A stretch of 41,932 nucleotides of DNA. Origin: Halorubrum sp. Boch-26 (GTDB lineage: Archaea > Halobacteriota > Halobacteria > Halobacteriales > Haloferacaceae). Shown piece by piece: positions 33,571-35,327 of this stretch. The position numbers and the translations under genes were made by a program. A model generated the notes under the pieces. The model saw nothing but the letters and a program-made list of their open reading frames with translations. It was not told the DNA's origin and made no database searches. Each line of letters begins with the position of its first letter. Within the stretch, counting starts at the first letter, position 1. The DNA is taken from the NCBI RefSeq assembly GCF_029889805.1, contig NZ_JARANT010000014.1:1-41932 (forward strand), in the 5' to 3' direction.

Positions 33571-33637
33571 ACGAGACGAAACAGCCGCCATTCGACGCTC
33601 CCTGTGGCTCGGTCGCACACCGCGTTTCCGGTGAACG

Positions 33638-33646
33638 CTTATATAC
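33638..33646 (+). promoter_or_regulatory. TATA box upstream of the hflX leader
   Basis: CTTATATAC, the only AT-rich box in the gap. It predicts transcription starting near 33667-33669, exactly at a GTG codon, and a leader of about 235 bases before hflX. Confidence 0.6.
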
Positions 33647-33667
33647 CGGGCGTTCGAACTGAGTGTC

Positions 33668-33694
33668 GTGAAGTCCCGCTCGTTCTCGCGTTGA
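33668..33694 (+). CDS. Possible 8-codon leader peptide ahead of hflX
   Basis: GTG-AAG-TCC-CGC-TCG-TTC-TCG-CGT-TGA would encode MKSRSFSR. Its GTG sits at the predicted transcription start, 26 bases after the TATA box centre, as in leaderless haloarchaeal genes. The stop codon (33692-33694) lies in the 5' arm of a long stem, so a ribosome here would block stem folding. It may be chance; no evidence of translation beyond position. Confidence 0.3.
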   Translation: MKSRSFSR

Positions 33695-33754
33695 CCCCGG
33701 CCGCGCGACGGCTCCGTGCGTTCTGCCGCTCCTCGCGGAGGGCCCCGGTCAACG
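33689..33754 (+). ncRNA. Candidate structured RNA / regulatory leader of hflX
   Basis: CGTTGACCCCGGCC (33689-33702) pairs with GGCCCCGGTCAACG (33741-33754): 8 perfect base pairs, a 2x2 mismatch, then 4 more pairs. Inside, CCGC-TCCTC-GCGG (33727-33739) can form a 4-bp hairpin and ACGG/CCGT complementarity lies at 33708-33717. No box C/D or H/ACA elements are visible, so a guide RNA is unlikely. Either a small stable RNA or a folded 5' leader of hflX. Confidence 0.4.
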
Positions 33755-33902
33755 ACCGATCGGCGCGACCGTGACCTTCTCGGTCCCGCCGCGCACCGCT
33801 CTCGATTTCGGTCCGTCATCCCCACTGCGCGCCGGTCGTCGCGAGGCCGTGGTCCCCGGTGACGAACCCCTCCCCGGGCCGATGTGAGCGCCCGACGAAA
33901 CG

Positions 33903-35327
33903 ATGTCACGAGACGAGCGATCCGACGACGAGACACGAACGGGAAGCGATCCCGACGACGACCGGACGCACCGCTCCGACGACAACCGAAGACGCCAGCA
34001 AAACGACAGCCGAACGCACTGTTCCGACGCCGGCCGCGCGCTGATCGCCGCTCGCGACGCCGATACCCGCCCGGACACGGACGAGATCCGCGGGCTCGCT
34101 CGCGCGGCGGGCTACGAGGTCGTCGACGAGGTGACCCAGCGGCGCCGCGAGGACCCGACGTACGGACTCGGACGCGGTAAGGCCGAGGACCTGATGCGCC
34201 GGGCGTCGACCGAGGACGTCGACGCCGTGGTCTACGACGGCGAACTCTCTCCGGGCCAGACGGCGTCGCTCTCGGACCTGCTCCCGGACGAGGTCGAACC
34301 GATCGACCGCACGCGGCTGGTCCTCGGCCTGTTCGCCGAGGGGGCCGGCTCCCGCGCCGCCGAGCTCCAGGTCGAACTCGCCCGCCTCCGGTACCTGAAG
34401 CCGCGGCTCCGGGAGCTCATCGCCCGGGACTACGCGACCGACCTCCGGTACCACAACGAGGACGACCGGCGGGTCCTCGACGCGGAACGCCGGATCGACG
34501 ATGTGAGACGCGCCCTCGACGACGTGACCGAGACCCGGAGCGAGCGCCGCGAGCAGCGCCGGCGGGAGGGGTTCGACGCGGTCGCGTTGGCCGGCTACAC
34601 CAACGCCGGCAAGTCGACGCTGCTCCGGCGGCTCGCCGCCGATATCGACGAGTCTGTCACCGCCGCCGACATCGACGAGTCCGTCACCGCCGCCGACCGC
34701 CTCTTCGAGACGCTCGACGTGACCACCCGGCGGGTGACTCTCGGGGGGCGGCGCGCGCTCGTCACCGACACCGTCGGGTTCGTGGACGCGCTCCCGCACC
34801 GAAGCGTCCGATCGTTCCGGGCGACGCTCGACGCGATCCGCGACGCCGACGTGGCCCTGCTCGTTATCGACGCCGACGACGATCCCGAGGCGGTCCGCGA
34901 CCGGGTCCGGACGACCCTCTCGGCGGTCGAAGAGACCGACGGTCCGGTGGTACCGGTGCTCAACAAGGCCGACCTGCTCGACGACCGCGGGCTGCGGGCC
35001 CGCCGCGAGGCGCTCGCGTCGGCGACGGACGACCTCGCCGCGGACGGACACGCCGTCGCCGACGCCCTCGCCGCGCCCGTCCACGCGAGCGCGCGCTCCG
35101 GCGAGGGAGTCGACGCGGTTCGAACCGCGGTCCGCGAGGCGTTACCGACCGCGGAGACGACGCTGCGACTGCCGAACTCGGGCGAGACGCAGTCGCTGCT
35201 GTCGTGGGCGTACGACCGCGGCGAGGTCCGCGAGGTCGACTACGGGCCGGACGGCGTGGCGGTCGACTTCGTCGGCCGCCCGTCCGTCGTCGCGGAGGCG
35301 GAGCGCCGGGCGACTGAGGTCAACTGA
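33903..35327 (+). CDS. hflX: GTPase HflX
   Basis: Ribosome-associated GTPase; bacterial HflX splits stalled or stressed ribosomes. The 474-residue protein has an N-terminal HflX domain (about 43-170: EVTQRR, YGLGRGKAEDL, YDGELSPGQ), a coiled-coil-like segment with RLRYLKPRLRELI and a long Arg/Glu helix (170-222), and the G domain: GYTNAGKST (231-239), DTVGF (289-293), NKAD (354-357) and SARSGEG (396-402). A 9-residue unit ADIDESVTA is exactly duplicated in the loop after G1 (246-263). The first 42 residues are hydrophilic and not conserved, so a later start is possible, but ATG at 33903 is the only good candidate. No TATA box lies close by; transcription probably begins far upstream at 33667. 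Confidence 0.9.
   Translation: MSRDERSDDETRTGSDPDDDRTHRSDDNRRRQQNDSRTHCSDAGRALIAARDADTRPDTDEIRGLARAAGYEVVDEVTQRRREDPTYGLGRGKAEDLMRRASTEDVDAVVYDGELSPGQTASLSDLLPDEVEPIDRTRLVLGLFAEGAGSRAAELQVELARLRYLKPRLRELIARDYATDLRYHNEDDRRVLDAERRIDDVRRALDDVTETRSERREQRRREGFDAVALAGYTNAGKSTLLRRLAADIDESVTAADIDESVTAADRLFETLDVTTRRVTLGGRRALVTDTVGFVDALPHRSVRSFRATLDAIRDADVALLVIDADDDPEAVRDRVRTTLSAVEETDGPVVPVLNKADLLDDRGLRARREALASATDDLAADGHAVADALAAPVHASARSGEGVDAVRTAVREALPTAETTLRLPNSGETQSLLSWAYDRGEVREVDYGPDGVAVDFVGRPSVVAEAERRATEVN
34638..34691 (+). repeat. 27-bp in-frame duplication inside hflX
   Basis: Two adjacent 27-base copies (34638-34664 and 34665-34691), differing at two third-codon positions, encode ADIDESVTA twice. 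The site is the loop between the P-loop helix and switch I. Confidence 0.9.

Follow-up and report, generated by a model that had tools for sequence, protein, structure and literature searches.

The analysed window comprises 41,932 nt of contig NZ_JARANT010000014.1 of Halorubrum sp. Boch-26 and carries at 33903..35327 a second HflX paralog (hflX2), whose GTPase motifs are intact and whose HD-loop has diverged. The gene and all features upstream of it lie on the forward strand. A TATA box (CTTATATA, 33638..33645) adjoins a 20-bp element (CACCGCGTTTCCGGTGAACG, 33618..33637), and the transcription start predicted from it lies at or near 33668, the first position of a leaderless micro-ORF encoding MKSRSFSR (33668..33694; GTG AAG TCC CGC TCG TTC TCG CGT TGA), which starts with GTG and stops with TGA. 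The stop codon is located inside the 5' arm (33689..33702) of a stem whose 3' arm (GGCCCCGGTCAACG) spans 33741..33754. The remaining leader (33695..33902) lacks a second promoter, and a block that is kept across Halorubrum covers the hflX2 start (CTCCCCGGGC...GCGCCCGAC...ATGTCACGA, 33870..33911). Two close Halorubrum loci were matched by the window hflX2 locus, and Halorubrum kocurii and Halorubrum sp. Hd13 are the closest named records.

HflX is a ribosome-splitting GTPase. It was matched in all 52 genomes of the genus, the canonical copy of the window genome being located on another contig (G000:C167). The hflX2 gene represents a second type, which is patchily distributed and fast-evolving and in Halorussus and Haladaptatus occurs on plasmid records. 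When 54 proteins were placed in a tree, the 14 canonical HflX sequences grouped in one clade (100/100), and none of them is accompanied by a micro-ORF. The hflX2-type sequences lie outside this clade on longer branches; since the tree was rooted at the midpoint, they are not claimed to form one clade themselves. The GTPase motifs are kept in both types, while the HD-loop is near-invariant in canonical HflX and diverged, variable and mostly not longer in HflX2. A longer HD-loop is found in bacterial HflXr, and according to a review hflX duplications do occur in archaea (PMC12493154). As a separate observation, several canonical hflX genes in Halorubrum and one other genus (L139, L138, L064, L065, L070, and L142) have a GTG mini-ORF of their own upstream (MQAAHHAAYAARDLLL and relatives, 14-16 codons). 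Its TGA overlaps the hflX ATG as ATGA, which suggests that canonical hflX is translationally coupled to this mini-ORF.

The original prediction had placed the transcript start exactly at GTG 33668 on the basis of the only TATA box, and had noted that no such box lies near hflX. Both points were borne out by the sequence, as the spacing fits a leaderless start and the 42 nt before ATG 33903 contain no A/T-rich octamer (A/T octamer score of 3/8, versus 7/8 before GTG 33668). A start just before 33903, which the prediction had set against its own reading, finds no promoter in front of hflX2. Across the homologous leaders, the predicted promoter is likewise positioned for the micro-ORF and not for hflX2, with mean A/T-box values of 5.97 at the micro-ORF, 3.45 at hflX2 and 3.43 at random leader positions. 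The ATG or GTG in Halorubrum is found 29-30 nt past the 20-bp element that adjoins the TATA box. In family f17 the TATA box lies somewhat farther from the micro-ORF than elsewhere, and a few untranslated nucleotides are therefore likely to precede the frame.

To what extent the micro-ORF is conserved was assessed in 78 homologous leaders traced in six Halobacteriales families. A micro-ORF of 4-10 codons was present in 74 of the 78, a count that is biased upward since micro-ORFs were chosen by eye from listed candidates; the unbiased figures are those of a blind detector and of the covariance model described below. The detector, which required an A/T-rich octamer together with a frame of 4-10 codons opened by ATG at 60-420 nt upstream, identified 44 of 87 hflX2 loci, compared with 2.9 expected, and none of 12 canonical hflX loci. 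An in-frame stop within 10 codons was found in 74/78 leaders, the counts for the two other frames being 1 and 4 and that for shuffled sequence 7.4. The Halorubrum peptides (given here up to the stop codon) are METSSFVAxx, the MKSxSFSR type and MKTVFASF; other genera of the same family have METSSPSR, MKTLFSTRR, MELDFY, METLSFPR, MTLD and similar frames, and other families METSSSSR, METLSRPR, MKTSLLRR, MIISPRS, MLLDY and similar ones. The MKSRSFSR of the window is homologous to METSSFVAxx, METSSPSR, MKTSLLRR and others, and L148, read by eye, has MPNPVC.

It is the start, the stop and the shortness of the frame that are conserved across the leaders, and not the peptide. Close pairs of micro-ORFs differ by 27 nonsynonymous and 17 synonymous changes, and no third-position excess was observed in the micro-ORFs. 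As nonsynonymous changes are no rarer than synonymous ones, selection at the peptide level was rejected.

Exceptions to this arrangement were also found. The micro-ORF stop is mutated in four Halorubrum leaders (L010, L014, L018, and L030), which lengthens the frame to 48-54 codons and carries it across the hflX2 start in a different reading frame. Two further Halorubrum leaders lack both the start codon and the TATA box, and in two Halorubrum hflX2 follows the 20-bp element after ∼40 nt without a leader. No micro-ORF was found in group g22 (L032 and L033), L061, L062 or L075, and several loci retain hflX2 though the micro-ORF or its promoter is absent. One Halorubrum hflX2 (G038:C1:1316836-1318221) is interrupted by an in-frame TGA and its leader is degraded, which suggests that this gene is decaying.

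We then turn to the stem, which had been described as a stable 12-bp structure enclosing the stop of the short frame. The position of the stop within the 5' arm was correct, and 12 pairs are present; they are, however, interrupted, with 8 contiguous Watson-Crick pairs (CGTTGACC/GGTCAACG) and 4 further pairs around a CC/CC internal loop. For a perfect stem of at least 8 bp containing the stop codon, 2% of shuffles reach the window value. Stability could not be demonstrated from the window alone, as the folded leader is no more stable than its shuffles (z -1.2 for 235 nt and -0.1 for 93 nt). The arm is kept in the two nearest relatives (L003 and L004), with one U-A/U-G/C-G series and one broken pair, while in Halorubrum L026 this position is taken by another stem (UGAUCCCG/CGGGAUCA). 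In the main Halorubrum subclade (METSSFVAxx) the micro-ORF is present and no clear stop-codon stem was found. The signal for RNA structure is weak in the clade of the window itself.

A structured leader RNA was found in the sister genus g6, where 16 pairs show double changes, compared with 5.6 in shuffled alignments and 2-4 in slid controls, and 95% of the alignment cells are paired. Compensatory changes back the helices H1 and H2 as well as a hairpin in two parts upstream of hflX2. H1 begins at the micro-ORF stop codon, and its loop GGCGAG is invariant. Folding of the L047 leader gave a z of -4.69. The original prediction had named missing conservation of stem and short frame as a refutation, and it withstood this: the micro-ORF occurs in six families and a covarying stop-proximal hairpin in the sister genus, but the stem is not universal.

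A covariance model built from the first part of eight g6 leaders was applied to 170 genomes from the family. Sense-strand matches at E ≤ 3.5e-5 came from 16 genomes, and every one of these has its match at an hflX2 leader, save G073, where it falls at a contig end. The matches new to the survey are leaders in G063, G067, and G071 plus the one in G073, with the micro-ORFs MEPTSLSR, METSSPSR, MKTHIASE, and METSSSAR. A g6-type leader in front of other genes was rejected, since hflX2 leaders account for all strong sense-strand matches; the next matches read (G018 and G085) have no hflX gene and seem to be due to chance. An Rfam covariance search of the leader gave no match, apart from one at chance level outside the leader. 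In a comparison of 15 groups, the stretch between the stop codon and +60 folds more stably than its shuffles (mean z -1.08, t -4.5; promoter control 0.05), while no local hairpin signal was found in group f17. Mutually exclusive structures involving the micro-ORF were seen by eye in g6, g23, L073, and L074. Pairing of the micro-ORF with the post-stop segment is not significant over all groups (t -1.0), and a universal switch between two structures, built from the micro-ORF, the post-stop segment and the downstream arm, was rejected on these grounds.

Which output such a leader might control was considered as well. No homologous leader contains a T-run of more than 4, so that a U-run terminator was not found and an intrinsic terminator in the leader was rejected; as no terminator was seen, control at the level of translation is likelier. 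General sequestration of the hflX2 start was not found either, though the leader may have some different kind of output. Pairing of the micro-ORF with this start is strong in Halorubrum, equally strong at loci without a micro-ORF and missing in the other families, and was rejected as a general output element.

Taken together, our results suggest that hflX2 very probably possesses a conserved cis-acting leader. We assign a probability of about 0.58 to the reading that this leader acts as a ribosome-dependent attenuator of hflX2. A single transcript would begin at the micro-ORF, and a ribosome would load on the leaderless start codon and meet the stop within 4-10 codons; in most clades the 5' arm of a hairpin contains or adjoins this stop. 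Should a drug, a stall or slow recycling at UGA detain a ribosome on the micro-ORF, the segment would stay unpaired, while termination and departure of the ribosomes would allow the hairpin to form. The leader could thereby signal ribosome trouble and tune the synthesis of HflX2 as a stress-type ribosome-splitting GTPase. Since start, stop and shortness are kept and the peptide is not, the presence of a ribosome rather than the peptide would be sensed. We infer that the micro-ORF is translated and that stalling provides the signal, as well as which way the leader switches and that it affects translation of hflX2 rather than its transcription. Induction of hflX2 by stalled or unrecycled ribosomes is possible, if somewhat doubtful. 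Of the archaeal attenuator originally proposed, the conserved cis-regulatory leader stands, but neither a terminator nor a generally sequestered start was found downstream for a stalled ribosome to relieve.

Conservation of start, stop and shortness without the peptide, with lengths ranging from 4 to 10 codons, would also fit a constitutive damper, in which the micro-ORF traps ribosomes at the 5' end and simply reduces translation of hflX2, with no sensing involved. We regard this as unlikely, as it leaves the covarying structured RNA and the stop-codon hairpins unexplained. These structures, above all the multi-helix covarying RNA of g6 with its invariant loop, could instead serve HflX2 or a ribosomal protein that binds the leader for feedback, the micro-ORF being secondary; such an explanation is less probable again, because the micro-ORF is conserved more widely than any single structure and several clades are little structured. 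That the peptide has a function in trans, or arrests ribosomes in a sequence-specific manner, appears very improbable: M-[E/K]-T-S-like starts do recur and a C-terminal Arg is frequent (36/74), yet the substitution pattern and the length of 4-10 codons argue against it, and no RLR arrest motif was found in the micro-ORF peptides of the homologous leaders. GC-rich DNA commonly contains short frames and stems, and the folding energy of the window alone is unexceptional, but mere chance can hardly be credited, as it is contradicted by the conservation across families, the g6 covariation, the blind detector, the A/T-box values and the covariance-model controls.

The attenuator reading has a bacterial counterpart in Listeria monocytogenes, where a second HflX, hflXr (lmo0762)/rli80, is under uORF attenuation beside a canonical copy (PMC6310831). 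As the hflX of the window is a second paralog too, a point that the original prediction had missed, it is closer to Listeria hflXr, and both have a short ORF in a long leader. The Listeria ORF has 14 codons and an RLR motif, its leader ends transcription at an intrinsic terminator, and drug induction was shown (PMC6310831), whereas the archaeal frames have 4-10 codons, are leaderless or nearly so, and lack RLR and a U-run terminator. Translational attenuators of the ermC type resemble the proposed mechanism in combining a leader ORF with competing hairpins, but sequestration of the hflX2 start is inconsistent and there is no arrest peptide. In Haloferax volcanii, uORFs of 15-31 amino acids were reported for 16 transcripts (PMC4983044); these small haloarchaeal ORFs, too, lie in leaders of about 150-250 nt. 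The conserved hflX2 frames are shorter than those in the uORF list consulted (at least 15 amino acids) and are tied to one gene type over six families. No archaeal ribosome-mediated attenuator was found in the part of the literature searched. Tentatively, at a little under even odds, we propose a Halobacteriales-wide archaeal attenuator in which a leaderless micro-ORF would report stalled or unrecycled ribosomes by being occupied, without a specific arrest peptide, and would switch on a dedicated ribosome-splitting HflX paralog, convergent with Listeria hflXr but lacking its terminator and arrest motif. If true, archaea too would sense ribosome trouble via micro-ORFs, and a second HflX would be under such control in archaea as in bacteria. 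Since haloarchaeal genetics is workable, the idea is directly testable.

Finally, the 20-bp element next to the TATA box was found in seven other genomic copies with 2-3 mismatches. Pfam Cdc6 models match the product of the gene that three of these (L158-L160, G000:C145) surround, and for this reason the element looks like an origin recognition box (ORB), similar to the repeats beside an orc1/cdc6 gene of this genome. In Halorubrum without hflX2, the element is located before the hisC promoter.
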